Shown in pieces: positions 4,961-57,467 of a stretch of 64,000 bases of DNA. This DNA comes from Methanocella arvoryzae MRE50 (GTDB taxonomy: Archaea > Halobacteriota > Methanocellia > Methanocellales > Methanocellaceae): assembly GCF_000063445.1 (NCBI RefSeq), contig NC_009464.1:2232001-2296000 (forward strand). The letters run 5' to 3'. The position numbers and the translations under genes are program-made. The notes beneath the pieces were generated by a model, which made no database searches, was not told where the DNA came from, and was given only the letters and a program-made list of their open reading frames with translations. The stretch's first letter is position 1. Each line of letters opens with the position of its first letter.

Positions 4961-5371
4961 ATGATGGCTTATAAATCATTCCTCACCAAACGGCAGCTTA
5001 CTGTGCTTCGCCTGCGACAGGCAGGCCTCACCCAGGAAGAGATCGCGAAGCGCATTAAGACCACCAGGGCGAATATCAGCCTCATCGAGAAGAGGGCGAA
5101 GGAGAACATCGAGCGCTCCAAAGAGACGATCAAAGAGTGGAACAGCGTCATCTCTCCAGTCCGCATCACCGTGAAAAAAGGCACAGACGTCATGACCATC
5201 CCCGAGATCGTGTTCGCCGAGGCGGACAGGTCAGGCGTCCATGTGCGCACCGACTCTATCGGGCTGATCACCCTCATCAAAAAAGAGAAGAGCGACGCCA
5301 TATCCAACCGCATGGTAGTCCGGGACTTCGAAGTGGACATCACCAACTCCGGAGAAGTGACCCTGCTTTGA
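4961..5371 (+). CDS. tfx: Tfx family DNA-binding transcriptional regulator
   Basis: The N-terminal helix-turn-helix (FLTKRQLTVLRLR, then LTQEEIAKRIKTTRANISLIEK, residues 7-45) and overall length of 136 aa match Tfx, the Methanothermobacter protein that binds the promoter of the molybdenum formylmethanofuran dehydrogenase operon. The C-terminal domain (about 60-136) is the family's conserved ligand-like domain. Tandem ATG codons lie at 4961 and 4964. It is divergent from fdhD and overlaps the next gene by two bases at its TGA, so it is probably co-translated with the DUF1786 gene. The position next to a molybdoenzyme accessory gene suggests a role in molybdenum or formate control, which is inferred. 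Confidence 0.85.
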   Translation: MMAYKSFLTKRQLTVLRLRQAGLTQEEIAKRIKTTRANISLIEKRAKENIERSKETIKEWNSVISPVRITVKKGTDVMTIPEIVFAEADRSGVHVRTDSIGLITLIKKEKSDAISNRMVVRDFEVDITNSGEVTLL

Positions 5372-6390
5372 GCGACGTTTTCGCCATCGACGTAGGCTCA
5401 GGTACTCAGGACATCCTTATCTCAGACTATCGCCTGTCAAAGCCGGCCGTTAAGCTCGTGATGCCGGCGCCGACCCAGCTCTTCGCCTCCCGCATCCGCA
5501 AATCCCGAAAAGACGTTTTCTGCGACGGCTACGTCATGGGCGGAGGAGCCATCACCGGAGCACTGAGAGCCCACACAGAGAAGCACCGGGTAGTCATGAC
5601 GCCCGAAGCAGCCCGCACCGTCCGGGACGACCTGGAGCAGGTCAAAGAAAGGGGCATCGAGATCGGCGACGAGTCGGACATGAAAGGCTCTTACCTTAAA
5701 CTGACGCTGATGGACGTCGACATGACAGCCTGGGAAGCCGGCCTCGCCATGCTGAACTACACCTTGCCCAAAGACATCGTCGTGGCAGTGGCTGTACAGG
5801 ACCACGGCGTGGCCCCGAAAGGCATGAGTGACCGGGAGTTCAGGTTCGAGCACATTGGCAAAAAAGTCAGGAAGGGCGCCACATTCAAGGACTTCATCTT
5901 CACGAAGAAGACGAACAAGTTCTCACGGGTAAGCGCAGTCATCCAGTCTTTAAAAGATCAGGGCTATGAGAACGTCCTCGTCATGGACACCAAGATCGCC
6001 GGCATCTACGGTGGATTATATGGCGAAAAGCTGCCCGCCATCGTCATGGACGTGGGCAACGGCCACACCACCGCCGCCTCCATCGCAGAGGACGGCACGA
6101 TCGTGGGAATATTCGAGCACCACACCGCCTCGCTGACGCCCGCCAAAATGAGGCTATACTTAGAAAAGCTGGCGGAAGGTACCCTGACCAACGAGGAAAT
6201 CTTCGAGGATGAGGGCCATGGGGCATACGTCAAAGAGCCAGTAAAGCCCGTTTCCATCATCGCCACCGGCCCCCGCCGGGATTTGGCGCTCAAGACGAAG
6301 CTGCCGATCAAGTTCGCCTCGCCGCTGGACGATGTCTACATGGTCGGGCCTGTGGGTATGATAAGAGCTTATCAGGCTCTAAAAGCCTAA
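5368..6390 (+). CDS. DUF1786 family protein, ASKHA-like fold
   Basis: The gene starts at a TTG (5368) that overlaps the tfx stop codon, giving 340 residues; the sequence upstream in the same frame is out-of-frame tfx. The N-terminus (FAIDVGSGTQDI) and a central motif (VMDVGNGHTTAA) look like the two phosphate-binding loops of ASKHA nucleotide-binding proteins (actin/sugar kinase/Hsp70). This matches DUF1786, whose members are sometimes labelled pyruvate formate-lyase activating-like without direct proof. Tight coupling with tfx, and divergence from fdhD, link it to formate or metal cofactor biology by context only. The biochemical function is unknown. Confidence 0.75.
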   Translation: MSDVFAIDVGSGTQDILISDYRLSKPAVKLVMPAPTQLFASRIRKSRKDVFCDGYVMGGGAITGALRAHTEKHRVVMTPEAARTVRDDLEQVKERGIEIGDESDMKGSYLKLTLMDVDMTAWEAGLAMLNYTLPKDIVVAVAVQDHGVAPKGMSDREFRFEHIGKKVRKGATFKDFIFTKKTNKFSRVSAVIQSLKDQGYENVLVMDTKIAGIYGGLYGEKLPAIVMDVGNGHTTAASIAEDGTIVGIFEHHTASLTPAKMRLYLEKLAEGTLTNEEIFEDEGHGAYVKEPVKPVSIIATGPRRDLALKTKLPIKFASPLDDVYMVGPVGMIRAYQALKA

Positions 6391-6562
6391 CGCCAGCCAA
6401 AGACTGGTTGATTTTAGTTCGCAAGGGCGCAGGGTCGCAAAGACGCTAAGAAGTCTACTGTAATGTTTATCATTTGCGCCTTTCTGGCTGTCCCATAATT
6501 CGTGTTCGTTATACAATAAGGAGATAAGTATCCTTTTTAGAGAAACCGTATAATCTTATCCC

Positions 6563-6613
6563 CGATGTTCGCCCGCCAGGACGCCTGCAATTGCAGGCGT
6601 CCGATGCGGGCGA
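6563..6613. repeat. Repeat B (REP-like double hairpin), copy 1
   Basis: The pattern is GATGTTCGCC, spacer, GACGCCTGC-AATT-GCAGGCGTC, spacer, GGGCGA. The inner perfect stem has a 4-base loop. Related copies lie at 6850-6897 (inverse), 10342-10389 and 34731-34765. It resembles bacterial REP sequences in size and form, but no RAYT transposase is present here. Confidence 0.65.
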
Positions 6614-6849
6614 TGTGTTGACGATCGCTGCGCTGTGCTTGAACACAGATTGCTCAGATAGCACAGATTGACACAGATGATCATCGAATCAGACTGATAA
6701 AAGCGACCCTTGCCTGTTCTATCTTTTGTGTTCATCTGTGCAATCTGTACAATCTGTTAAATCTGTGTCCCAGCACAGCGCAGCGATCGTATTGCTGTCT
6801 CACCAAATTCGGACAATCAGAGAACGCAGAGCGCAGCGATCATATACGG

Positions 6850-6897
6850 ATCGCCTTCGAGAACGCCTGCCAAGGCAGGCGTTCAAAAGGCGAACAT
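6850..6897. repeat. Repeat B (REP-like double hairpin), copy 2
   Basis: This copy is inverse to copy 1. The inner stem is GAACGCCTGC-CAAG-GCAGGCGTTC, flanked by CGCCTTC and AAGGCGAACATC. Together with copy 1 it forms the third layer of the nested palindrome. Confidence 0.65.
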
Positions 6898-7076
6898 CCT
6901 AAAAGGATACAGTTGTAGGTTTGGGTAGCAGATTATCTTAACAGGCAACCAAAATGAATTATGAGACAGTCTGCGTTGCGCCTTTGCGGCTTTGCGCCCT
7001 TGCGAATTAAAACTAGGGCGGCCTGTCGCCGACATTTATGAGCTATTTCTGTTTTGAAAAATAGAAAGAGGAGATG

Positions 7077-8768
7077 TTACATCTCCTCTATGGCCGCTAT
7101 TCCAAGCATGCCCAGCGATGCCGCCAGCGCCTTTCTCGACGCCTCGACCAGCGCCAGCCGTGCCTCTTTCAGCTCCGGCTCGGCGATGAGCACCGGGGAG
7201 ACCCGGTAGAACTGGTTGAATGCTTCTGCGAGTTCTCTGGCGTATATGGCGATGACGTGGGGCTTGAGCTCGGTGGAGGCGTTCTTGATCACGTAGGGCA
7301 TCATGGCGATCTTCTTTACCAGCGCCGCCTCTTCGGGCTCCCTCAGCATGGATGCATCGTACTCGCCTGGCTTCGCCTTTTCCAGGATGCTGCAGCACCT
7401 GGCGTGGGCGTACTGGATGAACGGGGCGCCCTGCTTCTCGAAGTCCAGCGCCGTTTCCCACTTGAAGGTGATCGACTTCTCGGGCGCCACGCGCACGATG
7501 TCAAAGCGCACTGCACCGATGCCGACGGCTTCTGCGATCTGCCTCTTCTTCTCCTCGGGGATGTCCTTCCTGCGCTTGTCAACTTCTACGTAAGCCCTTT
7601 CGACTGCCTCATCCAGAAGGTCGTCCAAATTCACAACGACTCCTTTGCGGGTGGACATGCGGCCCTCGGGCAGCGAGACGAAGGAGTAGAATACTATGGT
7701 TGGGGCCTTCTTCTCGCCCAAAATGCTTAACGCCGCGTTCAGGCGCTGCATGGCGAGCTTCTGGTCCTCGCCGAGGACGTTGATCGCCCTGTCACACCGG
7801 GCTAATTTCCAGACGTGGAAGGCGATGTCCCTCGTCGTATAGAGGGAGGTGCCATCCGCCCTGGTCAGGACGAATTCCTTGTCCATGCCGAAGCTCGACA
7901 GGTCCAGGGCGAGAGCGCCATCCTTGGTGGTGGCGTACTGCGATTCTGCCAGCTTTTTCACGGCCTTGTTGACCGAGCCGTCCCGGACGAAGTCGGACTC
8001 CCACACAAACCTGTCGTAGAACACGTTCATCCTGGCGAGCGTCATCTTCTGGCCCTCGAGGCACCGCTCGACCATTTCCCTGAACTTGACCGCCGTGGCG
8101 GGGTCCATGTGCTCGTAGGCGTTCAGGATCTCGGAGATCTCCTTCTCCACAGCCTCGTCGGACTTTCTCAGGTCGGTGGCCGCCCTGTAGACCTCGACGA
8201 TCTCGTGGTCTGGCTTGTCGGTGTCGGGCTTCCCCGGCTTGATCCGGTCCAGGTGGTCGTAGCCCCAGACGATGGTGGCTTCCTGCTTGCCCATGTCGTC
8301 CACGTAGTACTGGACTTCCAGGTCGTAGCCTCCGGCGCGGAGGAGCCGGGCGAGGGTGTCGCCGATGATCGGGTTACGCCCTCTGCCCACGTGCAGCGGC
8401 CCGGTGGGATTGGCAGAAGTGTGCTCTAAAATGACTTTGATGCCGTTGGGCTCCAGCTCGAAGAACTTCTTCTCGGACAGTATTTCTTTCAGTGAATCGG
8501 TGATGTACTTCTGGCTGGCGTAAAAGTTGATGTAGGCGCCTGTAGCTTCCACCCGGTCGATGTATTCGCTCTTGCCCATCTTTTCCACGATGGCGGCTGC
8601 GATCTCCTTCGGGTTCTTTTTCAGCTCCTTGGCGAGCCGGAAGGGCAGCGACGAGCTGACGTCGGCGTGCTGCGACTCGACGAGGCTCATGTCTTCCACC
8701 GTGTAGCCGGCGTCGGCGACCGCCTGCTTCATGAGGCGGCCGGCTTCCTCTAACAATTTAAGGTACAT
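7077..8768 (-). CDS. argS: arginyl-tRNA synthetase
   Basis: This class I aminoacyl-tRNA synthetase charges tRNA-Arg. The ATP site motif HVGRGRN (HIGH equivalent, after SANPTGPL) lies near residue 125, and the GRMSTRKG motif (KMSKS equivalent) lies near 378. An N-terminal Add-1-type domain and a C-terminal DALR anticodon-binding domain (from about 440, with AREL-x-EAFNQFY) are present. Length (563 aa) is normal. The ATG at 8768 has GAGGGTG about 8 bases upstream. It lies 15 bases after the aRF1 gene in the same direction, so the two form a translation operon. Confidence 0.95.
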   Translation of the reverse strand: MYLKLLEEAGRLMKQAVADAGYTVEDMSLVESQHADVSSSLPFRLAKELKKNPKEIAAAIVEKMGKSEYIDRVEATGAYINFYASQKYITDSLKEILSEKKFFELEPNGIKVILEHTSANPTGPLHVGRGRNPIIGDTLARLLRAGGYDLEVQYYVDDMGKQEATIVWGYDHLDRIKPGKPDTDKPDHEIVEVYRAATDLRKSDEAVEKEISEILNAYEHMDPATAVKFREMVERCLEGQKMTLARMNVFYDRFVWESDFVRDGSVNKAVKKLAESQYATTKDGALALDLSSFGMDKEFVLTRADGTSLYTTRDIAFHVWKLARCDRAINVLGEDQKLAMQRLNAALSILGEKKAPTIVFYSFVSLPEGRMSTRKGVVVNLDDLLDEAVERAYVEVDKRRKDIPEEKKRQIAEAVGIGAVRFDIVRVAPEKSITFKWETALDFEKQGAPFIQYAHARCCSILEKAKPGEYDASMLREPEEAALVKKIAMMPYVIKNASTELKPHVIAIYARELAEAFNQFYRVSPVLIAEPELKEARLALVEASRKALAASLGMLGIAAIEEM

Positions 8769-24374: not shown

Positions 24375-24421
24375 AATACCATAGAGGTACCTCCGACCAC
24401 GACAGTACTGCTCGCCTTTTC

Positions 24422-24640
24422 TCACCGCAGAGGTTCACGAAGTGGTTATTTTACCACAGAGGCACAGAGGTTCACAGAGCTACTGGTTTACCACAGAGGC
24501 ACAGAGGTTCACAGAGACTCACAGAGATTTACTTAATAGATGATTGACCTTTTATCCTTATAATAAAAAATCGCTCTCTGTGTTTCTCTGTGCCTCTGTG
24601 GTGAACCGTTCTCTGTGTTTCTCTGTGCCTCTGTGGTGAA
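24422..24640. repeat. Foldback array C (CACAGAG/CTCTGTG words), copy 1
   Basis: The left arm is a string of ACCACAGAGGCACAGAGG-type words, the right arm their complement (CTCTGTGTTTCTCTGTGCC), and the centre near 24530-24572 is AT-rich with TTAATAGATGATTG. It lies exactly between the 3' ends of two convergent DUF2085 genes. The same architecture and a similar centre recur at 42965, 43921 and 49971. Confidence 0.8.
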
Positions 24641-24671
24641 AAAAGCCGTGTCGGGCTATGGTTTCAAAATT

Positions 24672-34853: not shown

Positions 34854-35045
34854 TGGCCCTGAGCAGGTCGAAAATACCGCCAGGCTCGCCAAGGTGCCAA
34901 GCCCGCCAAGAGATAACTTTTTCATGGAACGCCAGTGTGCCAGGATCATCAAGCCTTACTAAGCTATTCATATTAATTCTGATCGAAAAAGCCCTTGGCG
35001 AGCTTGGCTTCCTGGCGTGCCTGGCGGCCCTATAACCATAGCCGA
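34854..35045. repeat. Foldback array D (GCCAAG/CTTGGC words), copy 1
   Basis: The left arm has CGCCAAGGTGCCAAGCC, the right arm CCCTTGGCGAGCTTGGC, and the centre is AT-rich. It is homologous to 57066-57262 outside the words too: GGTCGAAAATACCGCCA at the left end, TTTTTCATGGAACGCCA inside, and AACCATAGCCGA with TTTTTCATAG at the right end. It lies between two minus-strand genes. Confidence 0.75.
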
Positions 35046-36903: not shown

Positions 36904-37049
36904 ACCTGCTATATCGATAAAAATATCACGGCCCTGAATATTTAATTTTACTTGCGTATACTATTGATTATATACAGTAATATCCGTGATACTAGTATCC
37001 GTGAAACGCAGAGCCGTAAAAAGAAAATGGAGTGTTATTACGCGGTTAT

Positions 37050-38204
37050 TTACTGTAATATCCCGTCCTTCATGAGCAGCTTTTTCGACCCGTCCCTGTA
37101 CTCGACTTCGACTGTCTCTGAAGGTGCGGTCACGAAGTCCCAGTGCATGTTGCTCATGATGGCGCCGCCGTACCCCTCGCTCATGCCGAAGGCCACGTGG
37201 ACCGAGCCGCCGATCTTCTCGTCGGTCAGGATGTAGCCTATTGACCTGTCTATTACCGGGTTCAGGCCTATGCCGAGCTCGGCGACTTTGAGGGCGTTAG
37301 GTGCTCCGTACTTCTGCATGTCTACTTCCACGAACTTGGAGAGCGTGTCCCGGAGGACCTCCTGCCCCTCCTCCGCCGTGCATTTTTCGGGCACCAGCAT
37401 GCCATCCTTGAAGTACAGCCGGGCGCCTCTGATGAGCACGCTTCTGGTGAGATCGTCGATGGTGACCGGGCAGTAGATGGTACCCTCGCCATGCGTTTCC
37501 ACCGGGGCGACGAAGACCTCGCCGGCGGGCAGGTTTCCTCCGACATCGCCGCTCGCCTCTTTCTCCGGGGACCAGGTGGCATCGTCGGGGTTGAGCCTGC
37601 GGCCCTCGATGTCCAGCCAGAAGTCAGTGCCGTGCTTATCGGTAACATGCACCCGCCTGGCGCCGTCAAGGATGCTCATGACGTGCTCGCAGTCCGCTCT
37701 CAGCTTCTTATAGTCGATGTTGCAGCCGCCGATGACCAGCCGCTCCAGCACGTCCAGGGGCACGTCGTACATTTTTGCCATGCCTTCCGTCGCCCAGCCC
37801 ATGTAGATCCACGGTTTGCCGGGCTTGCTGTAGATGATCTGCAGAATCGGGTACATGCCCTCTGATCTGGCCTGCAGCTTTTCCCGGAAACTGGTTTTGA
37901 TGGACGGGTCGCTATATGGCTCTATTACGATGTACTTGTCCATCGCCTCGAGCGCGCCTTTCAGTATTTTTGGCGTGCGCTTGAACTGGTCCACGCTACA
38001 AGTCTCTAATAGCCGCTTCTGGTAGTCGTTGGATACCGCCGAGATGAATGGCTGCCCGCCCTTCTTCGCTACCTGGATCCCGATCTCTTCCAGAAATTCC
38101 TGCTGGTGGGCGCCGCCTGTGATGTATACGGCTTCGCCGTCAGAAACGTGAATCGCATCTATGATGTGAGCTGCCAGCTCAGGAAACATTTCTCTGCTGA
38201 CCAT
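37050..38204 (-). CDS. M29 family aminopeptidase
   Basis: M29 (AmpS/aminopeptidase T) enzymes are dinuclear-metal aminopeptidases. The family signature NLPAGEVFVAPVE, the ELGIGLNP segment, and DEKIGGSVHVAFG with SNMHWDFV at the C-terminus, which carry the metal ligands, are all present. The start at 38204 (MVSREMFPELA) gives 384 aa; a start at 38252 would run into AT-rich promoter sequence. The gene stands alone, in line with its neighbours on the minus strand. Confidence 0.9.
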   Translation of the reverse strand: MVSREMFPELAAHIIDAIHVSDGEAVYITGGAHQQEFLEEIGIQVAKKGGQPFISAVSNDYQKRLLETCSVDQFKRTPKILKGALEAMDKYIVIEPYSDPSIKTSFREKLQARSEGMYPILQIIYSKPGKPWIYMGWATEGMAKMYDVPLDVLERLVIGGCNIDYKKLRADCEHVMSILDGARRVHVTDKHGTDFWLDIEGRRLNPDDATWSPEKEASGDVGGNLPAGEVFVAPVETHGEGTIYCPVTIDDLTRSVLIRGARLYFKDGMLVPEKCTAEEGQEVLRDTLSKFVEVDMQKYGAPNALKVAELGIGLNPVIDRSIGYILTDEKIGGSVHVAFGMSEGYGGAIMSNMHWDFVTAPSETVEVEYRDGSKKLLMKDGILQ

Positions 38205-42939: not shown

Positions 42940-42964
42940 GGCTCTAATTTTTTCTTCTTTATTG

Positions 42965-43164
42965 ACCACAGAGGCACAGAGTGCCACAGAGACTCACAGA
43001 GAGACGGCTCACCACAGAGACACAGAGACGCACAGAGACTTTTTTAATAAGTGATTGCTATCAGATGATCTATATAAATATCTCTGTGGTTCTCTGTGCC
43101 TCTATGGTAAACCGTTCTCTGTGAGTCTCTGCGGTAACCAGTACTCTGTGAGCCTCTGTGGTTA
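42965..43164. repeat. Foldback array C (CACAGAG words), copy 2
   Basis: Left-arm ACCACAGAGACACAGAGACG words, centre with TTTTTAATAAGTGATTGC, and right-arm CTCTGTGGTTCTCTGTGCC words. It lies between hypE and carS. From 43165 to the carS start at 43334 I see only AT-rich sequence and a likely promoter. Confidence 0.8.
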
Positions 43165-49912: not shown

Positions 49913-49970
49913 ACAGGGAACTTCAGGGCGTATTACCTTATGCCATATAGGTTCACCGGGTACTGTTTTA

Positions 49971-50183
49971 CCACAGAGGCACAGAGACGCACAGAGGTTC
50001 ACAGAGATTTGGTTTACCACAGAGGCACAGAGACGCAGAGAGGGTTATACTCTAACTGATTATATATGATGTACTATCCACAGATCTATATACTTCTCTG
50101 TGAGTCTCTGTGTTTCTCTGTGCCTCTGTGGTAAACAGTACTCTGTGAACCTCTGTGTTACTCTGTGCCTCTGTGGTTAATAG
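49971..50183. repeat. Foldback array C (CACAGAG words), copy 4
   Basis: ACCACAGAGGCACAGAGACG words on the left, a centre with AACTGATTATATATGATG, and CTCTGTGCCTCTGTGGT words on the right. It lies between convergent HAD and TPR genes. The remaining bases of the gap (49913-50223) show nothing else. Confidence 0.8.
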
Positions 50184-50223
50184 TTCTCTGCGTTCTCTAT
50201 GTTAAGCATAGCACCACTAGGAA

Positions 50224-57370: not shown

Positions 57371-57467
57371 TTTGAAACTGAGTCTTGCTGGCAGTTTTCC
57401 AGTTTCAATATATTGACTCATCCCAGAGCAAGCACTAGTTGACTATACACGGGGATACTGGGAATCT

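Follow-up and report, generated by a model that had tools for sequence, protein, structure and literature searches.

In the genome of Methanocella arvoryzae MRE50, the gap 6390-7077 between two convergent genes (ORF list) is filled by inverted repeats nested one inside another, and the question raised by this locus is how such a structure was assembled. Unless another locus is named, positions refer to the window, i.e., the whole stretch of 64,000 nucleotides that was analysed. The paired repeats lie at 6412-6456/6968-7012 (45 nt, 80%), 6488-6510/6947-6969, 6581-6600/6863-6882, and 6621-6670/6741-6790 (50 nt, 86%). The original prediction described four layers around one centre, each from a family found alone elsewhere, which had arisen either by elements entering the centre of an existing palindrome or by palindromes growing outward. 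The folding check that it proposed bears out the nesting, as the single strand 6405-7015 folds at -157 kcal/mol compared with -78 ± 4 in shuffles (z = -18). The centres of the repeats, however, do not exactly coincide, and the inner unit sits in the 3' arm of the outer one. The structure is made of three things rather than four layers, namely an outer hairpin, a MITE, and the cargo of the MITE, which are arranged as follows.

5137-6390, plus strand: upstream neighbour from the ORF list, pointing into the gap; start codon uncertain
6412-6483, no strand: outer CGCAAAG-word hairpin (family E), comprising the 5' arm, the loop, and the first word of the 3' arm; recognised as an inverted repeat, by the empty-site fold, and as a family standing alone elsewhere
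6480-6483, no strand: left 4-bp target copy, CTTT
6484-6973, no strand: MITE of probable IS1182 type, 490 bp; known from about 18 whole or partial genomic copies and from an autonomous partner type in a congener
6484-6501, plus strand: left terminal inverted repeat, CTGGCTGTCCCATAATTC
6569-6613, no strand: left REP-like hairpin (cargo)
6621-6790, no strand: element A (cargo), in which ACGATCGCTGCGCTGTGC end words flank a CACAGATT-word palindrome
6826-6843, minus strand: extra element-A end word, 53 bp past the first, as a direct repeat
6847-6894, no strand: right REP-like hairpin (cargo), in the opposite orientation to the left one
6956-6973, minus strand: right terminal inverted repeat, GAATTATGAGACAGTCTG
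6974-6977, no strand: right 4-bp target copy, CGTT, with one mismatch to the left copy
6974-7012, no strand: remaining 3' arm of the outer hairpin; recognised as an inverted repeat and by the empty-site fold
7077-8768, minus strand: argS-like ORF of 563 aa, directed toward the gap; taken from the ORF list and from orthologues in three relatives

The outer layer spans about 6412-7012 and is built of iterated CGCAAAG words. It belongs to a hairpin family with conserved ends, copies of which occur without the MITE, for example at L131 1878-2016, L137 9062-9254, and L146 12827-12974. When the empty site is rebuilt by joining the flanks and dropping one 4-bp copy, the resulting 132 bases form a hairpin with a stem of ~33 bp (z = -7.2). 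The loop is on the left side of the MITE, as is the opening word of the 3' arm, which places the insertion in that arm instead of at the centre. An empty orthologous site is not readable in three relatives (L151-L153, compared with window 6390-7077), where argS is present and is followed by a different downstream gene; thus, the palindrome gap is a point of rearrangement. A search of Rfam with the nested structure returned no family at the gathering score. One plant microRNA match stayed below threshold and was judged to be an artefact of the hairpin.

The boundaries of the inner unit emerged from a search of the own genome (a single contig of 3,179,916 bases) with the whole gap as query, which returned, besides one further near-full match, many that are bounded at query positions 82 and 569. 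Alignment of the copies delimits a unit of about 485-490 bp running from (C)AGGCTGTCYCATAATTC to an inverted copy of it; in the window its ends are CAGGCTGTCYCATAATTC, with the 4-bp target duplications beside them. The genome has at least 18 such units, whole or partial, with 81-87% identity across the unit; most lack the outer layer or have another one. Both ends are kept in 11 of them (the window, L031, L032, L033, L034, L039, L040, L041, L042, L044, and L050). Exact 4-bp direct duplications flank L031 (CTTA), L033 (ATAG), L034 (AGGG), L039 (AGAG), L040 (CTTG), and L050 (CTTG), while L032, L041, L042, and L044 are without a clean duplication. Shortened forms include L039, with its right side gone, and L050, with a length of 137 bp. 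Common insertion events may underlie L031 and L044, which have similar loops, as well as L039 and L045, which have similar flanks. No ORF of at least 80 aa, and hence no transposase, lies within 6484-6973 in the ORF list, and the ORFs in copies L040, L044, and L047 are those of other, later-inserted IS. Owing to terminal inverted repeats with constant boundaries in many dispersed copies and to exact 4-bp direct target-site duplications, the unit is identified as a MITE. A whole-unit search of 59 other genomes of the phylum found no match beyond the own genome, and the end pattern CAGGCTGTCTCATAATTCRTT was not found in GTDB contigs.

Nearly all MITE copies carry a REP-like hairpin and element A inside, together with a second, inverse REP-like hairpin where the right half is kept. 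The REP-like layer therefore consists of separate local hairpins, which flank element A as a pair. The end word of element A has 131 copies per strand of the genome compared with 0 for the reversed control, and element A also stands alone at many genome sites. REP-like hairpins are likewise dispersed, with inverted pairs among them, and occur without element A at window 34731, L137 9461, and L147 1304. The segment GTATCCTTTTTA (GTATCC) has no other convincing copy within the window; its pairing is shared by the window copy with a few others and has disappeared in, e.g., L034. Judged from these copies, the "GTATCC layer" is an interior segment of the MITE and not a family. The proposal that each layer is a family found alone thus holds for element A and the CGCAAAG hairpins, both of which stand alone in this same genome, but fails for the GTATCC segment. 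Similarly, the layers are not all separate families that entered a centre, since the MITE lies in an arm and the REP-like hairpins and element A are cargo in nearly every copy. Element-A end words were also seen in tandem, with regular spacings of 75 and 53 bp (G000:C1:526881-527272 and 36946-37068).

A plausible partner for the MITE was found in the congener Methanocella sp. PtaU1.Bin125. This genome harbours a 1.7-kb IS with the ends CAGGCTGTACCATAATTC...CAATTATGAGACAACCTG and a 475-aa transposase (L197/L200/L237) that belongs to the IS1182 family (NF033551, 400 bits against a cut-off of 270). Its ends are near-identical to those of the MITE over 18 bp. The IS is flanked by CTTGGCGCCCTTG/CAAGGGCGCCAAG and lies within a CGCCAAG-word palindrome, where a perfect 13-bp inverted arm directly adjoins each end; the flanks are inverted and form no direct 4-bp duplication, which is ambiguous with regard to IS1272-type replacement. 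The same congener has a MITE of ~150 bp with matching ends and the target-site duplication CAAG, placed in a CCAAG-word palindrome and free of REP-like hairpins and element A. An intermediate with fewer layers, as was to be looked for in other strains, is thereby available in the form of a unit with terminal inverted repeats only, but at another locus. Together with the layers that stand alone in the own genome, this means that the result named as refuting the prediction, an unchanged full structure with no layer ever alone, was not obtained. A second IS in this metagenome-assembled genome, 50% identical to the first, has the ends CAGGCTGTGCAAGAAC and a CTTC duplication and lies outside such palindromes. 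The element of PtaU1.Bin125 is likely the parent type of the MITE. In the own genome, no relative of the partner transposase was found at E <= 1e-20, and no MITE-like end pair surrounds a transposase gene. As no related IS1182 transposase is left there, mobilisation by a transposase of the PtaU1.Bin125 type, or by a lost close relative of it, is inferred from the matching ends. Transposases of the DDE_Tnp_1 type in the own genome were considered as partners and rejected; among the representatives checked, the ends differ where they were found, and the L158 group gave none.

A second transposase family has entered the MITE in its turn. One 1.39-kb ISH3-like IS is present in MITE copies L040, L041, and L047 and in the stand-alone elements A of L175 and L176. 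Its ends are CAGTATCC, and it is accompanied by duplications, e.g., GATTTA and GATTAC, that lie within CACAGATT words or next to them. All five copies of this IS (5/5) are in element A, which is unlikely by chance because element-A-like surroundings make up only 2.4% of non-ORF positions. A different but related IS lies within element A of L044. Both transposases have ISH3 (NF033541) as best match, at 98 and 113 bits, below the cut-off of 225. At about window 57450-57463, a remnant of the 1.39-kb IS adjoins one end of an element A. A match to GGCTGTCTCATACGTT within the ISH3-like IS corresponds to the start of the IS ORF and was judged to be due to chance.

On the whole, we give a probability of roughly 85% to the reading that a CGCAAAG hairpin was invaded by an IS1182-type MITE with a REP-element A-REP cassette and that nesting recurs via palindrome-preferring transposases. 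The iterated-word intergenic hairpin would have been present first, and the 490-bp non-autonomous MITE would then have entered its 3' arm with duplication of 4 bp. The inner layers would have arrived together, the MITE having spread as one unit with the cassette between its terminal inverted repeats. Preference of the IS1182-type transposase for iterated-word palindromes would make nesting recur, and ISH3-like transposons would in turn prefer element A within the MITE. Nesting would be mainly the outcome of palindrome-preferring transposition and cargo amplification. The suggestion that elements enter existing palindromes is largely right, as it holds for the MITE in CGCAAAG/CGCCAAG palindromes and for the ISH3-like IS in element A of other copies.

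The other route, outward growth of the palindromes, or one co-evolved structure, produced for example by replication slippage, by foldback or by selection favouring a long terminator or other structural RNA, would fit the position between convergent genes and the very stable fold. It is nevertheless highly improbable, since terminal inverted repeats with target duplications beside them show separate insertion events at defined boundaries. Moreover, copies of the inner unit are found at other loci lacking the outer layer, the outer family is likewise seen free of the inner unit, other copies do not preserve the GTATCC pairing, and the Rfam search gave no family at the gathering score.

Whether the MITE chooses its targets was assessed by counting the words CGCAAAG, CGCCAAG, and CGCTAAG, with one mismatch allowed, in 100 bases on either side of the insertion. 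At least five words are present at 8 of the 11 two-ended copies. After collapsing L031 and L044, which have a common loop sequence, 7 of 10 independent insertions lie in CGCAAAG/CGCCAAG palindromes, the exceptions being L033, L034, and L041. In a 464-kb genome sample with the MITE sites excluded, five words are reached at 4.0% of non-ORF positions and at 6.0% of non-ORF NAAG/CTTN sites; the non-ORF regions were delimited coarsely (by open frames of at least 150 codons), so that the enrichment of 70% over an expected 6.0% (binomial P about 3e-7) is an approximate figure. The MITE might have no target preference and be retained in intergenic palindromes simply because insertions there are harmless, and in fact its sites are intergenic and palindromes are common between genes. 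We consider this unlikely, as the enrichment holds against the non-ORF NAAG background and the partner IS and the MITE of the congener likewise lie in such palindromes. The pattern would accordingly reflect a bias of transposition and not selection on survivors. A variant of the favoured reading has somewhat better prospects, although we still lean against it: the enzyme could read a short NAAG/GCGC-type sequence multiplied by the word repeats instead of a palindrome or hairpin. Most duplications are NAAG/CTTN-like. The duplication also forms the loop of a mini-hairpin in the window (GCGC-CTTT-GCGC) and in L039 (GCGC-AGAG-GCGC), and the excess of such mini-stems over nine sites reaches significance relative to genome positions (P = 0.008) but not when compared with the remaining NAAG sites of the same palindromes (P = 0.10). 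NAAG alone, however, does not explain the enrichment, the partner IS lies exactly between perfect inverted arms, and for IS1272, a member of the same family, inverted repeats serve as targets even when they have no sequence in common (PMC5678879).

Palindrome targeting as such is already known for IS1182 relatives and REP-seeking IS. IS1272, a member of the IS1182 family, recognises inverted repeats as targets and replaces them without duplication; a model variant in which the loop is duplicated has been drawn, an outcome not reported for IS1272 (PMC5678879). A second paper agrees on IS1272 and cites a review according to which some IS1182 members target palindromes (PMC4923244). The present system resembles IS1272 in the family of its partner transposase and in the choice of inverted repeats. 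It differs in that several MITE copies have exact 4-bp duplications with the word palindrome retained, contrary to IS1272-type replacement, and in that the element is non-autonomous, carries palindromic cargo, and resides in an archaeal host. REP sequences are targeted by ISPsy8, ISPa11, ISPpu9/10, and ISRm19/22 (PMC1525189). These, too, are mobile elements choosing repeated extragenic palindromes, but they are bacterial and act in one tier, whereas the archaeal genome studied here combines several tiers with two or more transposase families. With prokaryotic MITEs, BIMEs, and REPINs the element shares its non-coding nature, bounding terminal inverted repeats, dispersal, and paired REP-like hairpins; it differs from them in its inner cargo, a family of word palindromes that has ends of its own. 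No description of an archaeal MITE that carries palindromic cargo, has 4-bp duplications, and hosts a second, nesting transposase family was found in the literature searched, so that the present case looks new.

In this way, a puzzling nested palindrome resolves into insertions that can be put in order, and its copies make a natural collection with which to study palindromic target recognition by a DDE transposase. Should the two transposase families indeed favour distinct families of word palindromes, nested palindromes of prokaryotes would document target choice, and the iterated-word palindromes, of which little has been described, would acquire a role as safe landing sites. A bolder version, which we regard as doubtful, holds that the IS1182-type, the ISH3-like, and an TATAGTCTTTACTGGAACTTTTTGGAC-ended element are each specialised on their own word-palindrome family, and that structure guides the IS1182-type enzyme, which would join at a small hairpin loop and duplicate it. 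If true, palindromes would become landing pads for further palindromes.

The element with ends of about TATAGTCTTTACTGGAACTTTTTGGAC is a further one bounded by terminal inverted repeats that also encloses REP hairpins and element A. It tends toward CGAAGTACA-word palindromes, a parallel case of nesting, and was located at the following sites.

L049 144-548
L114 1416-1751
L120 1416-1751
L139 around 5044

Additionally, many families of intergenic palindromes are made of iterated words of 7-9 nt, including CACAGATT, CGCAAAG, CGCCAAG, CACAGAGG, GGAGGTCAGAG, CACGGCGAC, and CGAAGTACA. No description of them was found in the literature searched, and the word sequences tried were absent from the texts of relevant papers. 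They have a common arm-loop-arm design, with roughly 30 strong ones in the 464-kb sample; examples are listed here, and others are in L131-L150.

window 24400-24650
window 34890-35000
window 42960-43160
window 49960-50210
L137 9511-9761
L150 2578-2961
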